Positions 6,877 through 64,000 of a DNA stretch of 64,000 nucleotides are shown here, one piece after another. This stretch comes from Emydura subglobosa (taxonomy: Eukaryota > Chordata > Testudines > Chelidae). The notes below the pieces were generated by a model. It had not been told where the DNA came from and searched no databases. It saw only the letters and a list, made by a program, of their open reading frames with translations. The DNA is taken from the NCBI GenBank assembly GCA_007922225.1, contig ML679966.1, positions 60,108,316-60,172,315 on the forward strand, given 5' to 3'. Made by a program: the position numbers and the translations under genes. Each line of letters starts with the position of its first letter. The stretch's first letter is position 1.

Positions 6877-9324
6877 TCACCACCCTCCTAGTAAAAAACT
6901 TTTTCCTAATGTCCAACCTAGACCTCCCGCCCTGCAACTTGAGACCGTTGCTCCTTGTTCTGTCATCTGCAACACCGAGAACAGCCTAGCCCCATCCTCC
7001 CTGGAACCCCCTTTCAGGTAGTTAAAGGCTGCTATCAAATCCCCCCTCACTCTTCTCTTTTGCAGACTAAACAAGCCCAGTTCCCTCAGCCTCTCCTCAT
7101 AAGTCCTGTGCTCCAGCCCCCTAATCATTTTGGTTGCCCTCCGCTGCACTCTCTCTAACTTGTCCATATCCTTTTTGTAGTGGGGGGCCCAAAACTGGAC
7201 ACAATATTCTAAATGCGGCCTCACCAATGCCGAATAGAGGGGAATAATCACTTCCCGTGACCTGCTGGCAATGCCCCTCCTAATGCAGCCCAATATGCCA
7301 TTAGCCTTCTTGACAACCAGGGCACACTGCTGACTCATATCCAGCTTTTTATCCACTGTTACCCCCAGGTCCTTTTCTGCAGAGCTGCTGCCCAGCTCGT
7401 CGGTCCCCAGTCTATAGCTGTGCATGGGATTCTTCCTTCCTAAGTGGAGGACTCTGCACTTGTCCTTGTTGAACCTCATTAGATTTCTTTTGGCCCAATC
7501 CTCCAGTTTGTTTAGGTCACTCTGTATCCTATCCCTACCCTCCAGGGTATCTACCACTCCCCCCAGCTTAGTGTCGTCCGCAAGCTTGCTGAGGGTGCAA
7601 TCTACCCCATCCTCCAGATCATTAATAAAGGTTTTGAACAAAACCGGCCCCAGGACCGACCCCTGGGGAACTCCGCTTGTGACCGGTTGCCAGCTAGACA
7701 TGGAGCCATTGATCACTACTCGTTGAGCCCTATGCTCTAGCCAGTTCTCTATCCATTTTATAGTCCATTCATCCAACCCATACTTCTTTAACTTGCTGAT
7801 AAGAATACTGTGTGAGACAGTATCAAAAGCTTTGCTAAAGTCAAGGTATATCACATCCACCGCCTTCCCTACATCCACAGAGCCAGTCACCTCATCATAG
7901 AAAGCAATCAGGTTGGTCAGGCATGACTTTCCCTTAGTGAATCCATGTTGACTGTTCCTGATCACCTTCCTCTCCTCCAAGTGACTTAAAATGGATTCCT
8001 TAAGGACCTGCTCCATGATTTTTCCAGGGATTGAGGTGAGGCTGACCGGTCTGTAGTTCCCTGGATCCTCTTTCCTCCCTTTTTTGAAGATGGGCACTAT
8101 ATTTGCTTTTTTCCAGTGCTCAGGGACCTCCCTCTGTTCCCACGAGCTTTCAAAGATAATAGCCAATGGCTCTGAAATCACCTCAGCCAACTCCCTCAGC
8201 ACCCTCAGGTGCATTGCATCCGGCCCCATGGACTTGTGAATGTCCAATCTTTCTAAATAGTCTTGGACCCGTTCCTTCCGCACTGCGGGATGTTCTCTTC
8301 CTTCCCATTCTGTGCCACCCAGTGCAGCAGTCTGAGAGCTGATCTTGTCTGTGAAGACAGAGGCAAAAAAGGCATTGAGTACCTCAGCTTTCTCCACATC
8401 CTCCGTCACTAGGTCGCCTCCCTCATTTTCTAAGGGGCCCACACTTTCTCTAATCTTCCTCTTGTTGGCAACATGCCTGTAGAAACCCTTCTTGTTCCCC
8501 TTCATGTCCCTTGCTGGCTGCAACTCCAATTGTGCTTTGGCCTTCCTGATTTCATTCCTGCACGTTCGAGCAGTGTTTATATAATCCTCCCTAGTCATCT
8601 GACCAAACTTCCACTTCTTGTAAGCTTCTTTTTTGTGTTTAAGTTCGCCAAGGACATCTTTGTTAAGCCAAGCTGGACGCCTACCATATTTGCTATTCTT
8701 TCTGCACATTGGGATGGTTTGCTCTTGTGCCCTCAATAAGGTCTCTTTAAAATACAGCCAGCTCTCTTGGGTTTCTTTCCCCCTCATATTAGCCTCCCAG
8801 GGAATCCTGCCCATCAGTTCCCTGAGGGAGTCAAAGTCTGCTTTTCTAAAGTCCATGGTCCGTATCCTGCTGCTCTCCTTTCTTCCTTTCATCAGGATCC
8901 TGAACTCGACCATCTCATGGTCACTGCTGCCTAGGTTGCCACCCACTTGTACTTCCACTACCAAATCTTCCCTGTTTGTGATCAGCAGGTCAAGAAAAGC
9001 ATGGCCCCTAGTTGGTTGCTCCAGCACTTGCACCAGGAAATTGTCCGCAACACTCTCCAAAAACTTCCTGGATTGTTTGTGCTCTGCTGTATTGCTCTTC
9101 CAGCAGATGTCAGGGTGATTGAAGTCTCCCATGAGAATCAGGCCCTGTGAACTGGAAACTTTCCCTAGTTGACTGAAGAAAGCCTCATCCACCTCGTCCT
9201 CCTGGTCTGGTGGTCTGTAACAGACACCCACCAGGACATCACTCTTATTGTTCTTGCTTCTAAGCTTAACCCAGAGACACTCAACTGACATCTCCAATTT
9301 CATACTGGAGCTCAGAGCAGTCAT
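6877..9324 (-). pseudogene. CR1 ORF2: endonuclease and reverse transcriptase, 815 codons open
   Basis: This encodes the CR1 polyprotein that nicks target DNA and reverse-transcribes the element's RNA. The APE-type endonuclease part shows GDFN at residues 66-69 and the SDH motif at 134-136. A long linker follows, then RT: YRPVSL near 424-429, YLDFSKAFD with the motif A aspartate at 495, GVPQGS at 551-556 and the catalytic LADD at 581-584. The C-terminal thumb-like part includes RPHLEYC. The first methionine is not the true start: endonuclease residues (ETWW, DWSTVMDG, GGGVALY) continue upstream at about 9330-9450 in another frame with a TAG. The frame closes at 6877 inside the conserved tail, whose homologous continuation is in a different frame. 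The central 2.4 kb is strikingly uninterrupted, so the copy is probably fairly young. Confidence 0.9.
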
Positions 9325-9329
9325 AGTGC

Positions 9330-9860
9330 TCTCTTACATACAGTGCAACTCCTCCCCCCTTTTGCCCCTACCTGTCCTTCCTGAACAGTTTATACCCATC
9401 CATGACAGTGCTCCAATCATGAGAGTTATTCCACCAAGTCTCAGTTATTCCAATCATGTCGTAGTTTCTTGACTGTGCCAGGACTTCCAGTTCTTCCTGC
9501 TTGTTTCCCAGGCTTCTTGCATTTGTTTACAGGCACTTGAGATAAGTAGCTGAGTGGCCTACTTTCACAGTATGAATCAGGAGGCCTCCCCTGCTGCACC
9601 CTCCTACTTCTGCTTCCTTGTGGTGTCCCTCTTCCCCACTAACCTTCGGGCTTAGGTCCCCGTCCCCCCTCGAAACTAGTTTAAAGCCCTCCTCACTAGG
9701 TTAGCCAGCCTGTCTGCGAAGATACTCTTCCCTGTCTTTGTTAGATGAATCCCATCCCTTCCTAGTCATCCAGATCCCCCTCCCTGGCCCAATCTGGTCA
9801 GGACATCCCTCAGGATTAGGGCAAAGAAGGTCCAGGGTCCCAAGAGATTGACAGCCATGA
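9330..9860 (-). pseudogene. CR1 5' part: endonuclease N-terminus and ORF1-side remnant
   Basis: The minus strand from about 9450 to 9330 encodes the beginning of the CR1 endonuclease, out of frame with the long ORF and interrupted by one TAG. Farther upstream (about 9480-9860) is sequence I recognise as the ORF1 side of turtle-type CR1 elements, which in full copies encodes an RNA-binding/esterase-like protein. Here it is short, broken and lacks an open frame. The left boundary of the element near 9860 is approximate. Confidence 0.6.
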
Positions 9861-23801: not shown

Positions 23802-23807
23802 CGGCCT
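23802..23807. repeat. Target-site duplication, left copy (CGGCCT)
   Basis: CGGCCT directly precedes the TGTGGG start of the 5' LTR and is repeated at 29660-29665 directly after the ACA end of the 3' LTR. It is a 6-bp direct repeat made by integration. Confidence 0.8.
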
Positions 23808-23854
23808 TGTGGGAGTGTATTATTTGTACCCTGACCTGATGGCTACCTAAGTGG
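23808..23854 (+). repeat. 5' LTR, first 47 bp only (truncated by the gap)
   Basis: All 47 bases are identical to the start of the 3' LTR at 29193-29239. The rest of the 5' LTR and the primer-binding site are lost in the gap. Confidence 0.85.
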
Positions 23855-23864
23855 NNNNNNNNNN
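23855..23864. other. Assembly gap (10 N)
   Basis: Ten N lie inside the 5' LTR. About 420 bp of LTR plus the primer-binding site are expected here, so the true gap is larger than ten bases. The GC-rich tandem repeats immediately to the right are a likely cause of the assembly break. Confidence 0.95.
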
Positions 23865-24015
23865 GCCCAGAGGCAGGCGTGGTCGCCCAGAGAGGCAGGC
23901 GTGGTCGCCCAGAGAGGCAGGCGTGGTCGCCCAGAGGCAGACGTGTTCGCCCAGAGACGTGGTCGTCCGAGAGAGACGTGGTCGTCCAGAGGCGTGGTCG
24001 TCCGAGAGGGACGTG
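23865..24015 (+). repeat. GC-rich tandem repeats, about 22 bp, in the retroviral leader
   Basis: Units of the form 'gcccagagaggcaggcgtggtc' are repeated nearly perfectly about three times. They then decay into shorter variants (cgtggtcgtccgagagaga) up to about 24015. They sit between the gap and the gag start, where leader and packaging signals normally lie. The repeat count in the real genome may be higher because the gap abuts it. Confidence 0.85.
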
Positions 24016-24024
24016 TTTGAGCTC

Positions 24025-24034
24025 AAAGGTGAGC
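24025..24034 (+). promoter_or_regulatory. Possible retroviral splice donor
   Basis: AAAG|GTGAGC, with the cut after 24028, matches a strong donor consensus and lies in the leader upstream of the gag ATG, where a donor for env mRNA is expected. No transcript evidence is available. Confidence 0.4.
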
Positions 24035-24050
24035 GGCTAATTAATTAAGT

Positions 24051-24470
24051 ATGGGAAACGCTGCATCAGCTGAAGAAAAAACGGTGCTTGAATTTTTTAT
24101 ATGTATCGCGGAGCGCCAAGGGGAAAAGGTGTCCCCGGATGAATTATCTTGCTTATTGAAGTGGGAACTAAGAAGGGGATTTTTTGTAAAATCAAGTACT
24201 GTATTTGATAAGACTGTCTGGGAATACTTGGGCTCCGACCTATGGGAGTCGGTAGCCCATGGCAACAAGGAAGCCTTTGCCTTAAGTCAGACCTGGAATA
24301 AGGCAAGGAGGATGGTGAAGAACCTTGCGGCTGAAGCGGGGGTACAAGCGGCAGTGAGAGAAATATTTCAAGTGGGAAATGAGACGCCTCATGTATTGCC
24401 AGTAGGGAACGAAGTGAGTGTGGAGACCTGGACCGCAGTTCCATACCTCCGCGAGGAGATTGGTCGGTGA
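24051..24470 (+). CDS. gag: Retroviral Gag matrix domain, 139 codons, truncated gag
   Basis: The open frame begins MGN, the classic N-myristoylation context of retroviral matrix proteins, and is the only long ATG-started frame at the expected place after the leader. It is predicted to be a helical matrix domain that binds the inner membrane face during assembly (family knowledge). Features seen are an acidic/basic helical N-terminal half, tryptophans in the 'WEYLGSDLWESV' segment and a C-terminal part ending EEIGR before TGA. Matrix normally continues into capsid; here the frame stops and capsid is largely deleted. I cannot assign the genus firmly: the layout looks more beta/alpha-like than gamma-like. 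A 134-codon frame on the opposite strand is its shadow. Confidence 0.8.
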   Translation: MGNAASAEEKTVLEFFICIAERQGEKVSPDELSCLLKWELRRGFFVKSSTVFDKTVWEYLGSDLWESVAHGNKEAFALSQTWNKARRMVKNLAAEAGVQAAVREIFQVGNETPHVLPVGNEVSVETWTAVPYLREEIGR

Positions 24471-25015
24471 CGGCCAAAGCGTGTGATAAATACTGGCACA
24501 TAGGAAAATAAGACTCCTAAAGAGACCTCTACCATGGGAAATGAAAGAAATACTGAGTGGCAGGTTTCTCTGAAGAAGTACAGAAGTACTGAGTGGCAGT
24601 CAGACTTCTCTTATGTGGTATAATAAGTGTGTGAAAAGGATCTTGAAAACTGTTTGTAATTAGGTGCTACCTTAAGTGTTTCAAGAGAGAGAGAGGAGAT
24701 TTTTTTTTTCCTTTTCTTCTCTGTTTCTCTCTCCTTATCTCTCTCTCCGTTTCTCTTCTCTTGTTTCTAAAAACCTTTGAGAAAGGGGGAGGGAGTGGGT
24801 AAACATAATGGGAAATTGTAAAAAATAAGGATCGGGCCCTTAAGCATTTTGGTTCGAACAACATGGTTTATGGCCAAAAGGAGAAAGGGGGGCCGAAGAT
24901 AAAATGCAGACAGGGTGAAAACTCTAAAGAAAGACTGCATAAGTCCCGGGTAAGGAGTCTAAATGACTCCAAAAAGGAAAAAGTGAAAATTTAGATAAAG
25001 AGTATATAGAGAGGT
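24471..25015 (+). pseudogene. Decayed gag middle region with a CT-rich tract
   Basis: Between the matrix stop and the zinc knuckle there are only about 550 bp and no long frame, so the capsid domain is missing. A pyrimidine tract occupies about 24701-24770. Duplicated words ('actgagtggcag' at 24553 and 24589) suggest a small tandem duplication. Confidence 0.55.
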
Positions 25016-25190
25016 CGGGGCCGGGGTTGGGGAGTAGGACGTGGTACCTTTTTGGCCCCAGGAGATTCCTCCTGCCACTATTGTGGACAGTTGGGACACT
25101 GGAAAGCAGAATGTCCAGGACGATCTGGCCAGTCGGAGTGGACATGTGGGCCACCACCACCTCCTCCCCGAGACCAGACTCAACCTTTAT
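25016..25190 (+). pseudogene. Nucleocapsid remnant: Arg-Gly box and one CCHC zinc knuckle
   Basis: In the frame containing 25073 the sequence reads RGRGRGWGVGRG and then one CX2CX4HX4C zinc knuckle at 25073-25114 (CHYC, GQLGH, WKAEC). A proline run and a stop at about 25190 follow. Retroviral nucleocapsid binds genomic RNA through such knuckles; gammaretroviruses typically have one. The frame is closed upstream by a stop near 24999, so it is no longer joined to matrix. Overlapping short frames in the other two phases are shadows. Confidence 0.75.
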
Positions 25191-25244
25191 ATTAGGACAG
25201 CCTGGGAAATGGTAACTTTATTAATGCACCCTTTTTGTTAATAG

Positions 25245-25440
25245 ATTAATCAGGTTTTTATGTGTTTTGTTTTATTGATGGAAAACCAGTAAAATGTTTT
25301 ATAAACACTTTCTAGACACTGAAGTCAGCAGATCCACCTTAAAAGTTTAGGAGTTTTCTCTATTCCCTTATCAAGGAAGAATGTAAACCAATTAATGCCG
25401 CATCTAGTGTCTAAACCACTATCTGTTTCTTTGAGATCTA
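25245..25440 (+). pseudogene. Protease remnant
   Basis: Residues DGKPVKCFINT can be read at about 25278-25310, followed by words resembling the region around a retroviral aspartic protease active site, but with stop codons and frame breaks. It stands between nucleocapsid and RT as expected for a gag-pro-pol order. No active-site triad survives. Confidence 0.45.
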
Positions 25441-25655
25441 TTTCTAATTAGCATGCTTTTTTTTTTTAAGTTTTTATTTTTCAGTTAACCTGGTAGGTAG
25501 ACATTTATATTGTAAAATTTGATTGTACTATTTATTGTTTACCAGATGGGATTAATTTGTTATTTTCCTTGTGAAAATGAAAATTCTATTTTGGCTGTAT
25601 TTCTTGAATAGGGACAGGATTTTGAAATATCCAGCATACAAAAGGAATATGTCCT

Positions 25656-25750
25656 GTAATTACATCTCTCCTTAAACAAGGAATTATTGTGCCTATTTGA
25701 ATCCTCTAAAACACCCCAATTTTTCCTGTTAGAAAACCTGGAAAATATTT
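25656..25750 (+). pseudogene. Reverse transcriptase N-terminal remnant
   Basis: One frame reads LLKQGIIVPI, two stops (25698-25700 and 25707-25709), then NTPIFPVRKPGK. This is the conserved fingers segment at the RT start in gammaretrovirus-like Pol. The palm with the catalytic YxDD is absent: the sequence passes within about 30 bases to the connection region. A large in-element deletion is inferred. Confidence 0.7.
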
Positions 25751-25751
25751 A

Positions 25752-26048
25752 TTGCTTTGTGTAAGATTGTGTGGGGATAAGCATAAGACCATTGCCTGTT
25801 ACAGTAATGCCATGGACCCTGTAGCTGCAGGGCTTCCACCTTGTCTCCGTGCCATTGCAGCTGTAGCTGCCTTGGGTAAAACCTCGGAAACTTTGATATT
25901 TGGTTCTCCACTTATTATTTTTGTACCTCATATTTGTTTAACAAAATATGAAATTCTTTTGTTGTTTGCAGGTCATATTATACTCACCCGATGTCCAGTT
26001 TTTGATCCTGCCTCATTGTTATCCACCCTTTGTAGAACCCAAAATTGA
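25752..26048 (+). pseudogene. Pol connection / RNase H-proximal remnant, 98 codons open
   Basis: The frame contains DPVAAGLPPCLRAIAAVAAL and, farther on, FGSPLIIFVPH. This is the characteristic segment between RT thumb and RNase H of gammaretrovirus-type Pol. It ends at a TGA at 26046-26048. It is stable enough to identify the class but has lost both flanking domains in frame. Confidence 0.75.
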
Positions 26049-26084
26049 TTTTCTATGTTATTGGCTCCTGTCAAAGAAATTTTA

Positions 26085-26445
26085 AAGGTATTCTTGTGGC
26101 TGATTATGCTGTTTGTTCTTAACATGAGGTAATTAAAAGTAACCCTTTCCCTTCTGTGAACCCTGATCAAGAAGCTAATTTTTTTCCTGTAACTACGGTT
26201 TGTATCCTGACCGAAGGTAAATTTGTTAATGATTCCCATTATGCCTTTGGTGTTGTTCATAATTATGGTTAACTCTAAAAACAAAAAGGCTTCCCCACTT
26301 TGGGAGGCTTCCATATTAAATGAATTTTATGTTGCTGCTTTATAAATGTTGTATAGTTATTTTTTATTATTGTTGTTGTTAAATGTTTAGTTTATTGGTA
26401 TGTTGTAACAGACTCTGCTGTTAAGGCTGCAGTCCTTTCTGCATT
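26085..26445 (+). pseudogene. RNase H remnant
   Basis: The readable part VCILTEGKFVNDSHYAFGVV at about 26200-26260 corresponds to the RNase H segment around a conserved acidic residue (DS.YAF). Stops interrupt it before and after. The following 150 bases are AT-rich and diverged, with a trace (SAVKAAVLSAF) near 26415-26447. Confidence 0.6.
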
Positions 26446-26514
26446 TTAGGCCATATTTATGTTGTTTTGTGTTTATATTGGTCCAGTCTAATATGTATTA
26501 GTAATTGTATGTTT

Positions 26515-26765
26515 ATTTTTGAATGGGTAAAAGTTTACCCATGTGCTAAGGCTGACACTATTATAGTCAGTGAAAGGCTTGTGAAGGAATTTATCCCTTG
26601 CTTTGGGATCCCTCTGTCTACCAACAGTAACAGGTCAAGTTATAAAAGAAGTTTGCAAGGCTCTTGATATCCAACAGAACTTTTATTGCCTACATCACCC
26701 TCAGTCTGCAGGGGCAGTGAAAAAACAGAATGGTGTTCTAAAAATAAATAAATAAATAAATAAAC
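26515..26765 (+). pseudogene. Integrase core remnant, catalytic positions altered
   Basis: The core reads CAKADT, LVKEFIPCFGIP and NSNR in one frame, then shifts; the next part (VCKALDIQQN, QSAGAVKKQNG) is in another frame. At the position where family members carry the second catalytic aspartate this copy has Asn (26629-26631). At the expected catalytic glutamate it has Lys (26720-26722). A short AAAT microsatellite follows at about 26746-26767. Retroviral integrase joins viral DNA to host DNA; this copy cannot. Confidence 0.75.
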
Positions 26766-26767
26766 TA

Positions 26768-27228
26768 GCCAAAATTTGCCATAAAACCAGCCTCAAATGG
26801 CCAAATGCCCTGCCTTTAGCCCTTATAAGTATAAAATCATCATGTAACAGAAACACTGAACTATTACCACACAAGATCCTAATGGGCTGACCCGTGAGGC
26901 TTTTTAGCTCTCTACCAGTATCAACTCACCTAATGGATATTAATTTAGCTGATGAAATTGACTTGACTTATTGTCAAGCATTAATGAAGTGTGTTAAGGC
27001 TTTTCGTTCACAGGTCCAAGAAGCCCTTCCCCAAGACCCTCAAAAAGCATGTCATGATCTACAGCCCAGTGATTGGATTCACGTAAAAGTCCACCAAGAA
27101 AGACAGCCCTGAAACTGCGTTGGAAAGGCCCACTCCAGGTATTTCTCACCACCAACACTGTTGTAAAGTGCCAAGGTTACCAGTCCTGAATACATGCCTG
27201 ACACTGTAAAAGAACCTCTGCACCTGTA
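26768..27228 (+). pseudogene. Integrase C-terminal remnant
   Basis: Words such as LKWPNALPLALISI and, in the frame at 26894-27112, LQPSDWIHVKVHQER resemble the integrase C-terminal region, including the small SH3-like DNA-binding domain. Stops and one shift break the frame. It ends just before the env-side ATG at 27229, the overlap or near-overlap typical of pol and env. Confidence 0.65.
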
Positions 27229-27504
27229 ATGACAAGGTCAGTGGAACAGGGTGCAAGTGCTTGTAACCTCTCCCCTGCTCAAGAAAAGGATTTACCACTC
27301 CAGAGCGAAAAGGATTTGAAACCACTCCAGAGCGAAGAGGATTTGAAACCACTCCAGAGCGAAGAGGATATACCACAACGTCATCCCTACCACTTCAAAA
27401 GGAAAAGACTTAAAAACTCCCTAGATCACTGGTTCCCTAAATGGGTATGGCTAGTGATCTTCTGGATGTTTTGTATTGTCCTTATCTGGATGACTCTCTT
27501 TTGA
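27229..27504 (+). CDS. Env leader-like small membrane protein, 91 residues, with in-frame repeats
   Basis: The frame has a true ATG directly after the pol remnants, at the env position. Residues 23-49 are three tandem 9-residue units (PLQSEKDLK, PLQSEEDLK, PLQSEEDIP). A basic patch (KRKRLK) and a hydrophobic segment near residues 72-91 (WVWLVIFWMFCIVLIWMTLF) then lead to a TGA. A basic patch before a membrane segment fits a long Env signal-anchor leader. After the stop, the same frame continues with surface-like residues, so the stop probably truncates an ancestral env. It could also stand alone as a short membrane protein. Confidence 0.55.
   Translation: MTRSVEQGASACNLSPAQEKDLPLQSEKDLKPLQSEEDLKPLQSEEDIPQRHPYHFKRKRLKNSLDHWFPKWVWLVIFWMFCIVLIWMTLF
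27295..27375 (+). repeat. 27-bp tandem repeat, about three units, in frame
   Basis: The unit 'ccactccagagcgaagagga' plus 'tttgaaa' occurs at 27295, 27322 and 27349, the last partial. A length divisible by three keeps the reading frame. Confidence 0.9.
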
Positions 27505-27790
27505 TCCAAGTTCCTGATTAACGGTACACCTGTCGAGAAAATCCCCAAGGTCCATGGGGAAGAAGACCAACAACCTGATGACTTTGAGGTACAATTACAA
27601 CCCAAGCAACTAAACCATAAAAGACAATGCTTCTTGGACTATACAGACACATCTTTATAATTAATTATTCAATTACAAACAGATTTCAATGTGTCTAACT
27701 GTTGGATTTGCAGTCATGTTCCCTTGCATTTTGAAGAAGGTATACCCGTGGTTCTGATTGTGTTAACCACCATGTAGTAAAGAGATTGAG
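27505..27790 (+). pseudogene. Env surface-subunit remnant
   Basis: It continues in phase after the TGA at 27502 with FLINGTPVEKIPKVHGEED, then breaks. A CWIC motif is readable at 27700-27711; gammaretroviral surface proteins carry a CXXC motif of this kind that links to the transmembrane subunit. Little else of the surface subunit remains. Confidence 0.6.
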
Positions 27791-27944
27791 AAGTTAACAC
27801 TACAGAGTTTGGAGGGACAGTTAAAAGTGTGAAAAGTGTTATAGGAAGAGAATTTTTGAATTTTTTTTTTGCAGCCTTCTGAAGGAAAAACAGGCCCTTC
27901 TCCCAAATAATTGGTCTGTAAATATGTAAATAATCAATTGTAAT

Positions 27945-28369
27945 TAATTGCTGCAGGCTGATAGACAATCTGATTTAAATCATTTGACTATGGACAATTC
28001 AGTCAAAATTACTGAAAGAACTACTAATTTAATGCACATGATATTTTACAAATCGCATCATTATTCCATACCATTTCCCAAGATGATATGTCATGGGGTT
28101 TCACAGATTTATTTTATGCCTTAATCTTATGGCTATCAAATTTATTCTGGCTTACGTAATTGTTTGTGTGTATAATTTGTTTTATTGTTATTTTTACCTG
28201 TTGTTGTTTTTAGTGTTTGGGTATTTTGCCCTCTGTTTGCTTTGCTTTTAGTTGGTTTGTTAAGGCCAGAGTGCCTGTTGTGCAAATGTTAACTTAAGTT
28301 GAAATTATTAAATTTAAGCAAAAGCTAGCTCAGGTTTATAAGTGAGCCACACTGGTATTACAGTATGGC
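27945..28369 (+). pseudogene. First Env transmembrane-subunit end (remnant)
   Basis: Broken frames read SWGFTDLFYALILWLSNLFW (membrane-proximal), then a membrane span (LFVCIICFIVIFTCCCF), then a tail (KQKLAQVYK) that runs into the polypurine tract at 28370. This is the normal layout for the end of a retroviral env. Stops interrupt it. It differs from the second transmembrane end at 28897-29235, so the element holds two. Confidence 0.55.
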
Positions 28370-28792
28370 TCAAAGGGGGGATTGAAGGAAAATAATTGTC
28401 TGCTTGATTATAGTCACTTTATTTTAGTTTTTTGAGTGTTCTGCTCTTTGCTGAAATCACCCCCCTTCCTTTTCCCATAGTGTTTGATTTTTTGCCAGGG
28501 TCAGAGACAGGGTAAGGAGAGAGCCAACTAGTTTTAATTAGTCATATAGCCTTCTGAGGGAGAGATCAGACAACTTTAATAGAAAAGTAGAAATTTTTTG
28601 TTCATATGTTATCTGTTATGTATATTTTTTAAAATAGAAATGTATAAGTTAATGGTAATAGTAGTAATATTTTGAATATACCTATAAGTATCAAAAATTT
28701 ATGCATATGTAATTTTTTTTTTGTCTTGTTTGTATAAATATGTAAAAAAGCATGTCTTCAGGGTCTCACACTGACCACATGCTGGGAAGTGT
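28370..28792 (+). repeat. Polypurine tract followed by LTR-like U3 sequence (first site)
   Basis: 'caaaggggggat' at 28371-28382 followed by TGAAGGAAAA resembles the polypurine tract and LTR start of gammaretroviruses. About 400 bp without coding capacity follow, then the next site begins. No TATA or poly(A) layout is obvious, and its 3' end is not found. Confidence 0.45.
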
Positions 28793-28855
28793 AAAAGAAA
28801 GGGGGGAGCTGTGGGGGTATATTATCCATATGCTGACCTAACGGCTGCAGAATCG
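28793..28855 (+). repeat. Second polypurine tract and truncated LTR start
   Basis: 'aaaagaaaggggggag' at 28793-28808, then TGTGGGGGTATATTAT from 28810, closely parallels the true 3' LTR junction at 29176-29210. The similarity (ctgacct, ggct) continues for about 48 bases and then stops. It appears to be a related LTR start, deleted after its first 40-50 bases. Confidence 0.6.
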
Positions 28856-29235
28856 TGCAGCTATCGATTTTTTTTTTGTTGGCACAGGGACACGGTTGTG
28901 AGGATTTTGAAGGCATGTGTTGTATGAATTTATTAGATCATTTATATTTTGTTCATGCTTTATTGCAATGCCTTGCAAATTATATGCATAAGATTATGCA
29001 AACTTATAATCCCTTATGGGAGTGGCTTAGCAGCTTTGGCTGGCCCTTTTGGTTTGTTTTATTTTGTTATATGGGGATAATCATTTTGGGAATTGTACTT
29101 TTCTTCCTTATTTGTGTCCCCTGTTTTATTTGCTTATTGCAAGGTAGTCTGGAGTGTTTTGTTGAGCGCCTATTTAAAAGAAAGGGGGGAGATGTGGGAG
29201 TGTATTATTTGTACCCTGACCTGATGGCTACCTAA
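28855..29235 (+). pseudogene. Second Env transmembrane-subunit end with CX6CC, 126 codons open
   Basis: The open frame has no ATG at its upstream end (the first codon is GTG); the first in-frame ATG is within the CX6CC motif. It shows CX6CC at 28897-28923, the transmembrane-subunit motif that bonds to the surface subunit in gamma-, alpha- and deltaretrovirus-type Env. A membrane-proximal WLSSFGWPFW, a long hydrophobic span (about residues 62-95) and a short basic tail (RLFKRK) follow. The frame reads through the polypurine tract into the LTR (YYLYPDLMAT, stop at 29235). The fusion peptide and upstream helix are missing. It cannot be a complete Env. Confidence 0.7.
29176..29192 (+). promoter_or_regulatory. 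Polypurine tract of the 3' LTR
   Basis: The purine run 'aaaagaaaggggggaga' directly precedes the TGTGGG start of the 3' LTR. It primes plus-strand DNA synthesis in retroviruses. Confidence 0.85.
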
Positions 29236-29659
29236 GTGGACACTTACAGCAGGCCTGGTGCTGGACACCGGGTCAAGTGAGGCTGCCTACAGGGAGCTGG
29301 AAGGTGGCCACTTTCACTCAGGCGCCTCACTGGCGGCGAGTTCCCGGGACTTGGCCGCCATCCACTAGATAGTAGAAAGTATTCAAGGTCGTAAACAAGA
29401 TAGTTGTGTGAGCTAAGATGCTACCAGTAATATGTAAGCTGTTCCCGTGTGAAGTAGGTGAAATCATATAATAGCCAATCAGAAATTGTGTGACCATTGT
29501 ATGCAAAGATGATAAAAGGGTATATAAGCTGGAGAACAAGATGGAATAAACGATTCTGCTTGCAATCATATTGGTTGTTGTGCTTTATCCGTCCTGCATC
29601 CTCTATCATCAGCAGTGGAACTCTCCCTCTTCCTCTGCTATCAGCATTGGAACCCGACA
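29193..29659 (+). repeat. 3' LTR, 467 bp
   Basis: It starts TGTGGG and ends CCCGACA, an imperfect inverted repeat. Promoter-like elements are CCAAT at 29475-29479 and TATATAA at 29521-29527. A poly(A) signal AATAAA lies at 29545-29550, which gives a plausible U3, short R and U5 layout. The first 47 bp are identical to the visible 5' LTR. The CGGCCT duplication follows at 29660. Confidence 0.88.
29473..29550 (+). promoter_or_regulatory. LTR core promoter and poly(A) signal
   Basis: Order and spacing are as expected in a U3/R junction: CCAAT, then 42 bp to TATATAA, then AATAAA 18 bp farther on. Transcription would start near 29550. Confidence 0.6.
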
Positions 29660-29665
29660 CGGCCT
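29660..29665. repeat. Target-site duplication, right copy (CGGCCT)
   Basis: Matches 23802-23807 exactly. Confidence 0.8.
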
Positions 29666-59515: not shown

Positions 59516-59519
59516 TAAA

Positions 59520-60080
59520 CAGCCACCACAGGGAACCCCATTAGATACGGGGCAGTATATAGAGGGATCCCGCAGGAGTCAGTCAACGTTTTCATTAATG
59601 ACTTGGATAATGAAATGGAAAGTATGCTCATAAAATTTGCAGAAGAACCCAAGCTGGGAAGGGTTTCTAGCACTTTAGAAGACAGGATTAGAATGCAAAA
59701 CAACCTTGACAAATTAGAAAATTGGTCTGAAATCAAGAAGGTGAAATTCAGTCAACAAAAGTGCAAAGTACTACACTTGAAAAGGAAAAAATCTAATGTA
59801 CAACTACAAAATAGGGAATAACCGGCGAGGTTGTAAAACTGCTGAAAATGATCTGGGTTTATAATGAATCACGATTCAATGTCATCCTGGGGTATATTAA
59901 TAGGAGTGTCATATGTAAGACATGAAAGTTTATTGTCCCACTCTATTCAGTACTGTTGAGGTCTTAGCTGGAGTATTCTGTCCAGCTCTGCATGCTACAC
60001 TTTAGGAAAGATGTGGATAAACTGCAGATAATTTTTATTGCTGTCTTCTGGACTATTAAAAAATTAAGAAAACCTGATCT
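59520..60080 (+). pseudogene. CR1 RT fragment, left part (interrupted)
   Basis: The frame at 59603-59821 starts with DNEMESMLIKF and contains LEDRIRMQNNLDKLENW and KCKVLHLKRK, the conserved region around and after the RT active site of CR1. The catalytic ADD is changed to AEE at about residues 13-15. Downstream thumb words (LEYSVQLCMLHF-like) continue to about 60080, where an insertion interrupts. Inactive. Confidence 0.8.
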
Positions 60081-63298: not shown

Positions 63299-64000
63299 AG
63301 AACATAAGAATGGCCATGTTGGATCAGACCAATGCTCCATCTAGCCCAGTATCCTGTCTTCCAATAGTGGCCAATGCCAGGTGCTTCCGAGGGAATGAAC
63401 AAATAATCTTCAAGTGATTCATCCCATCAGCCATTCCCTGCCTCTGGCAAATAACAATCACTGCCTATCCTGGCTAATATCCTTTGATGGACCTACCCTC
63501 CATGAACTTATCTAGTATTTTTTTAACCCTGTTATCGTCTTGGCCTTCACAACATCATCTGGCAAAGAGTTCCACAGGTTGACTATGCGTTGTGTGAAGA
63601 AATACTTCTTTTTGTTCATTTTAAACCTGCTGCCTATTAATTTCATTTGGTGACCCCTCATTTTTGGGTTGTGCGAAGGAGTAAACAACACTTCCTTATT
63701 TACTTTCTCCACACCAGTCATGATTTTATAGACTTCTATCATATATCCCCTTAATCGTCTCTTTTCCATGCTTATTAGTCTCTCCTCATATGGAAGCTTT
63801 TCCATACCCCTAATCATTTCAGTTGCCCTTTTTTGTACCTTTTCCAGTTCCAATAGATCTTTTTTGAGATGGGGCAACAAGATCTGCATGTTGTATTCAA
63901 GATGTGGATGTACCATGGATTTATAAAGAAGCAATATGATATGTTATGTCTTATTGTCTATCCCTTTTCTAATGATTCCCAACATTGTTAACTTTTTTGA
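63299..64000 (-). mobile_element. CR1 3' portion at the right edge (second subfamily)
   Basis: On the minus strand the element ends at 63299 with the complement of 'aacataagaatggccatgtt'. The frame at 63512-63934 encodes the CR1 ORF2 C-terminus: [32 protein letters not shown] and [14 protein letters not shown]. Frame loss near 63500 and the window end limit the copy. It probably continues beyond position 64000. Confidence 0.9.

Follow-up and report, generated by a model that had tools for sequence, protein, structure and literature searches.

The region from 23808 to 29659 of the analysed DNA (64,000 nucleotides, in the following called the window) is a real and most likely recombinant provirus, probably in a new arrangement. 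It is described here, with some confidence, as a single endogenous provirus that arose by recombination between an alpharetrovirus-like RNA and an RNA transcribed from an older class I element and was integrated once. Parts resembling different lineages lie inside one LTR pair and one target site duplication, as in a mosaic ERV. A gammaretrovirus-like RT/RNase H piece and an alpharetrovirus-like Env TM occur in one provirus, the CpG content differs among the parts, and a diverged internal polypurine tract with 37 LTR bases is fused directly to the TM piece. These features support the proposal of the first-pass annotation that two retroviral lineages recombined before the final insertion.

Limits of the provirus and its flanks

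The 3' LTR (29193-29659, plus strand) has a length of 467 bp, starts with TG, ends with CA and contains a TATA-like box (29521) and an AATAAA motif (29545). Of the 5' LTR only the initial 47 bases can be read (23808-23854, plus strand), the remainder being hidden by an assembly gap of 10 Ns (23855-23864), which also conceals the primer binding site and represents the only Ns in the window. The paired LTR starts (23808-23854 and 29193-29239) are identical at 47 of 47 bases; because of the gap the comparison is limited to these bases, for which the 95% upper bound of the outer LTR divergence is 6.2%. The target site duplication, CGGCCT, is found at 23802-23807 (5' copy) and 29660-29665 (3' copy). 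When 600 candidate LTR ends were compared with the left flank, this one alone matched over at least six bases, a CA standing before it. Paired LTRs with TG...CA and a short target site duplication are thus present, as in an integrated LTR provirus. Because the matching LTR starts and the CGGCCT duplication bound it, the whole of 23808-29659 is best read as one insertion, in which the LTR pair and the single 6-bp duplication enclose everything.

Regarding the assembly, a chimaera joining two different proviruses is improbable. The 10-N gap in the 5' LTR does indicate an imperfect scaffold, but the internal junction at 28845 is gap-free, and the roughly two bases shared there would not suffice for an overlap join; moreover, Ns occur in the window only at 23855-23864, and the target duplication ties the outer ends to one insertion.

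Outside the provirus, an 818-codon stop-to-stop frame (6880-9333, minus strand) resembles the reverse transcriptase of a CR1-type LINE by eye, and further CR1-like pieces are located at 59519-59818 (plus strand) and 63515-63943 (minus strand). The style of the repeats may point to a turtle as host. Rfam and tRNA searches yielded no match, and NCBIfam yielded weak, unrelated matches only.

Stacked 3' ends and the second TM

The three purine-tract strings listed in the first-pass annotation (28371-28388, 28793-28817 and 29176-29200) are present verbatim, and the relatedness claimed for the second and third was confirmed by a gapless alignment of 28792-28846 with 29175-29229 (45 of 55 bases identical, E 2e-9), the ten differences comprising eight transitions and two transversions. 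In protein comparisons the same homology gave a score of 69 (0 of 200 shuffles as good). Site 3 (29176-29192, plus strand) is the polypurine tract of the provirus and adjoins the real LTR, the evidence being the paired LTRs and the 6-bp duplication; site 2 (28793-28808, plus strand) is its homologue. Site 1 (28371-28382, plus strand), taken alone, is suggestive of an old polypurine tract. The proposal had been that the LTR of another retrovirus begins here, but no partner LTR was seen in the window and only the purine tract is shared with the other sites. (Note that 28792-28846, read in one frame, gives KRKGGAVGVYYPYADLTA, which closely resembles the tail of the second TM, KRKGGDVGVYYLYPDLMA, as if an env tail had once run into U3 at both places.)

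The pattern A{3,}[AG]{0,6}G{6} occurs eight times in total on the two strands of the window, five times inside the provirus and three times outside, with a first-order Markov expectation of 0.37 per strand. All four occurrences on the plus strand (the three sites and 24884) are within the provirus, as is one of the four on the minus strand (28460). A stricter form of the tract followed by TG was found three times on the plus strand (the three sites) and once on the minus strand (51940), the simulated mean being 0 (n = 30). The minus-strand tract at 28460-28473 lies within the stretch 28383-28791 and appears on the plus strand as a pyrimidine tract followed by CCCATAG, resembling a splice acceptor.

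Site 2 is followed by the first 37 bases of a truncated internal LTR (LTR2, 28810-28846, plus strand), which has 9 mismatches to the 3' LTR in its 37 bases, against none in 47 between the outer LTR starts (Fisher p 3e-4; p 0.0016 if 10 of 55 differences are used in place of 9 of 37). Given this divergence next to identical outer LTR starts, the internal end was probably already distinct before this insertion. The same comparison argues against a tandem duplication or rearrangement of the 3' end after insertion, which is very improbable. Sites 2 and 3 do share their orientation, are separated by 383 bases and are 82% alike, as a duplication would leave them, but LTR2 is far more diverged than the outer LTR starts, and the sequences upstream of the two sites (28560-28791 and 28940-29174) align with a score of 31 against a shuffle mean of 27, 68 of 300 shuffles being as good. 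Insertion of a second provirus into, or beside, a first one is very improbable as well. The crowding of several LTR-start-like sites would fit such nesting, which had been put forward as the alternative to recombination, but LTR2 comprises only 37 bases and has no 3' end, neither a partner or further LTR copy of either kind nor a second duplication was found in the window, and the one duplication encloses everything.

The second TM (TM2, 28845-29192, plus strand) is an alpharetrovirus-type Env TM piece that runs from LQNRAAID through CX6CC and the membrane anchor to site 3. The 132-codon ORF covering it (28837-29235) matched ASLV TM chains in the PDB with an E value of 1.1e-5; besides these two, there was at E<=1 one further distinct sequence, which was unrelated. 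Among the 20 candidates from the protein database 14 had E<=0.01, three of them bearing bird names (Tyrannus, Nestor, Nestor) and 11 none; one of these relatives, P0003, also has an Avian_gp85 domain. The ORF reached no Pfam cut-off, the only hit being GP41 at 0.35. The CX6CC TM core is thus most like that of ASLV, as in an alpharetrovirus or avian gamma-type Env. A class II pol is expected in the same virus as such an Env; here the only classable pol piece is gammaretrovirus-like. In tblastn searches the LQNRAAIDF frame was matched from 28845 and another frame, LLAQGHGCEDFEGMCC, from 28870; because these lie in different frames, the TM2 frame is broken once between them, and the relatives include frames that run unbroken through that stretch. 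The sequence preceding 28845 is the 37-base LTR start and not Env, and TM2 is cut at this position, the alignment placing upstream of the cut the region in which such an Env has an internal fusion peptide between cysteines. The LTR2/TM2 junction is thus located at about 28845-28848, is gap-free and has about two shared bases.

The first-pass annotation had also reported two different Env TM ends; the second (28845-29192) is certain, whereas the first (about 28100-28390) is borderline. The latter belongs to a decayed first env (27202-28390, plus strand), which ends with KGGIEGK across site 1 and which we take, from its translations and by eye, to be env-like, a weak assignment. Its membrane anchor gave borderline tblastn matches to P0004, P0006 and P0008, that to P0004 having an E value of 0.007 or 0.025 depending on settings; the score of 70 against P0004 was reached by 0 of 200 shuffles, and was the best of 36 frame-by-target comparisons. 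Pfam gave no meaningful match for six integrase-like or first-env-like pieces in one search and for two in another. P0004 being related to the second TM, the first env could likewise belong to the TM2 type; to judge from this borderline match to alpharetrovirus-type relatives, it is perhaps not of class I. The first env also aligned with the TM2 tail (score 58, 1 of 200 shuffles as good) and 28383-28846 with P0002 (score 39, 0 of 200), both results being weakened by hydrophobic composition and by the number of tests.

Between sites 1 and 2 an AT-rich stretch (28383-28791, plus strand; GC 0.31, no CpG) has a longest open forward frame of 33 codons. Possibly it is the remnant U3 of a third virus, with site 1 as its polypurine tract, or a 3' UTR. 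Comparison of 28383-28792 with the 3' LTR, the flanks and the rest of the provirus gave short matches only (best E 0.005). Two further assignments were rejected: a TATA-like box, considered as an LTR sign, was also present in 1332 of 2000 shuffles, and the alignment with 28845-29174, considered as that of a diverged copy of the TM2 region, was equalled by 157 of 300 shuffles.

An ordinary provirus of a single family is an unlikely account of these 3' features, with site 1 as the coding end of env, 28383-28791 as a 3' UTR, site 2 as an accessory tract and TM2 in its native layout. It is consistent with the borderline matches of the first env anchor, with the lack of LTR signs in 28383-28791 (the TATA-like box being as common in shuffles as stated above) and with the (K/E)GGI step that site 1 (KGGIEGK) shares with the Env tails of P0001, P0004, P0008, P0009 and P0011. 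However, TM2 begins abruptly at LQNR right after 37 LTR bases, and the gammaretrovirus-like RT piece shares one provirus with the alpharetrovirus-like TM. To our knowledge, an LTR start is directly followed by a TM in no functional retrovirus.

Interior and ages of the parts

The leader (23865-24050, plus strand) contains a GC-rich 22-bp tandem repeat, which follows directly on the assembly gap (23865-24015; CpG observed/expected about 1.0, and 1.0 over 23865-24044). It is followed by the gag start (24051-24470, plus strand), which is open for 139 codons from an ATG. A protein homologue search with the gag start yielded 47 candidates, none at E<=0.01, Pfam and PDB searches yielded no meaningful match, and the predicted fold is of low confidence (mean pLDDT 43). 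A nucleocapsid-like piece (25010-25195, plus strand) contains one CCHC zinc knuckle (Pfam zf-CCHC, E 2.8e-6). In the PDB its best matches were cellular knuckle proteins (E 2e-7); because retroviral NC chains matched only at E 0.016 and weaker, the name is partly positional. A single CCHC zinc knuckle in gag is characteristic of gammaretrovirus-like (class I) ERVs; one was found in this piece, and other frames could hold a second.

The RT connection/RNase H piece (25710-26045, plus strand) is open for 112 codons and is the only part with class I pol character. A phmmer search of the PDB gave 10 distinct sequences at E<=10, of which four were RT/RNase H chains (E 4e-12 to 1.3e-11) and the other six unrelated; in Pfam, RT_RNaseH was hit only at 0.029, under the cut-off. 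The piece aligns to residues 392-449 of the best RT/RNase H chain, and immediately upstream a short, weak match (3 bits) corresponds to residues 105-122 of the same chain. With the alignment limited to these residues, most of RT is apparently absent from the provirus. Farther downstream lie decayed pieces in two frames (26425-27201, plus strand), which we take, by eye, to be integrase-like; searches of Pfam (four pieces), the PDB (two) and the protein database (one) gave nothing for them. A 27-bp (nine-codon) tandem repeat in 3.3 copies (27283-27369) sits in the open frame 27202-27501, between the integrase-like and the first-env-like sequence.

The leader repeat has a CpG observed/expected ratio of 1.0, gag one of 0.76, TM2 one of 0.36 and the 3' LTR one of 0.43, whereas the ratio is 0.17 (19 observed, 112.7 expected) for 25221-28791 and 0.16-0.17 for the flanks on both sides. 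In conditional tests, with intervals picked after the profile had been seen, the difference from 25221-28791 was significant for gag (17 observed, 22.3 expected; p 1.8e-5), for TM2 and the 3' LTR (15 observed, 36.7 expected; p 0.015) and for all three together (p 4e-5). Among 129 tiles of the flanks (median ratio 0.135), four had a higher ratio than TM2 and two a higher ratio than the 3' LTR. A clean split is contradicted by 24471-25000 (0.36) and 25001-25220 (0.37), the latter holding the nucleocapsid-like piece. The profile is most simply explained if a large share of the middle had been ageing in the host genome by the time it was picked up, although its low CpG could partly be native to a CpG-poor parent virus. 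Stop codons point the same way, in frames picked by eye: none in 139 gag codons and none in 122 TM2 codons, as against two in 150 and two in 32 codons of the integrase-like frames and four in 193 codons of one first-env frame. The open RNase H piece does not fit a simply older middle.

Proposed route of recombination and comparison with known systems

The recombinant origin favoured here could have taken the following course. The alpharetrovirus-like RNA would have supplied the TM, the polypurine tract and the 3' LTR, and the RNA from the older class I element would have supplied pol, the first env and 28383-28846, both RNAs having been packaged together. Minus-strand synthesis would first have copied the alpharetrovirus-like 3' LTR, polypurine tract and TM, would have jumped near LQNR (28845-28848), at about two shared bases, to the U3 start of the LTR of the second RNA, and would then have continued through the polypurine tract, env and pol of that RNA. 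Beyond normal end transfer, one short-homology jump would be needed, and the stacked 3' ends would be the scars of one or more template switches. Since sites 2 and 3 are related, the second RNA would already have had a similar LTR, which makes the parents less clearly separate. The provirus's own RT seems mostly absent; for this reason the integrase that inserted the product, in a single event, was probably of the 6-bp (alpha/beta) type and acted in trans, which is also what the 6-bp duplication together with a class I pol remnant suggests. A more specific version, regarded as possible but rather doubtful, is an inter-class chimaera in which the alpharetrovirus-like virus came from a non-bird sauropsid and took up what lay between the ends of a class I ERV that had decayed long before; the hybrid, itself dead, would have reached another site in the germ line through the 6-bp integrase of the alpharetrovirus-like helper.

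Regarding target duplications, the portion of PMC3790719 available gives lengths of 4 bp for PFV, 5 bp for lentiviruses, 4 and 5 bp for the two gammaretroviruses tested (MLV and Rev-A, respectively) and 6 bp for the alpha-, beta- and deltaretroviruses ASLV, MMTV and HTLV, and reports that the length varies within gammaretroviruses. The 4 or 5 bp expected of a gammaretrovirus-like (class I) ERV are thus replaced by 6 bp here. Co-packaging followed by template switching is an accepted route to mosaic ERVs, mosaics and env snatching are common among human ERVs, cross-class mosaics are few, and some mosaic HERVs are thought to have re-integrated (PMC4724089, in the part available). According to excerpts of a further study, turtles are hubs of retrovirus transmission (PMC6001957). 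In the accessible part of a survey from 2013 (PMC3758190), the ordinary gamma-type is the sole TM reported for class I retroviruses, and the avian gamma-type TM is described as known so far from alpharetroviruses and birds only.

A literature search judged by titles and the openings of abstracts found no description of this mosaic, scans of viral contigs confirmed no relative, and a scan of bacterial and archaeal genome contigs found none. Recombinant ERVs are well known and as such ordinary, but an alpharetrovirus-type TM combined with what remains of a class I pol looks unusual. If the favoured reading is right, the provirus would be a fossil of inter-class template switching with a junction fixed to a few bases, and CpG decay would reveal in part which events came first. 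The provirus would then also show that the decayed inside of one ERV can be mobilised again when flanked by the ends of a different virus, and might extend the hosts or the pol types with which the alpharetrovirus-type TM is associated. If the inter-class version were true, the 'avian gamma-type' TM would occur in another vertebrate class, beside a class I pol.

Among known systems, the RNase H/connection piece matches the RT-RNase H of gammaretroviruses (PDB 4hkq, 8wus, 5dmq, 4mh8), from which the provirus differs in retaining only a remnant and in its target duplication of 6 bp instead of 4 or 5 bp. The CX6CC motif and the surrounding LLAQGHGCED core match the ASLV TM and thereby the alpharetrovirus ('avian gamma-type') Env, but the present piece lacks the part with the fusion peptide. 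Mosaic ('noncanonical') HERVs such as Harlequin, and env-swapped ERVs, likewise combine an interior and ends from different groups. According to the available part of PMC4724089, mosaic HERVs are mostly within one class, whereas here a class I-like pol is combined with an alpharetrovirus-like TM/LTR side; the 3' ends are, moreover, stacked and an LTR stub is fused to the TM. Class II ERVs of birds and python with a swapped gamma-type env also show a cross-class combination of env and pol (PMC3758190, in the part available), but the combination is reversed in the present provirus, which joins a class I pol remnant to an alpharetrovirus-type TM.
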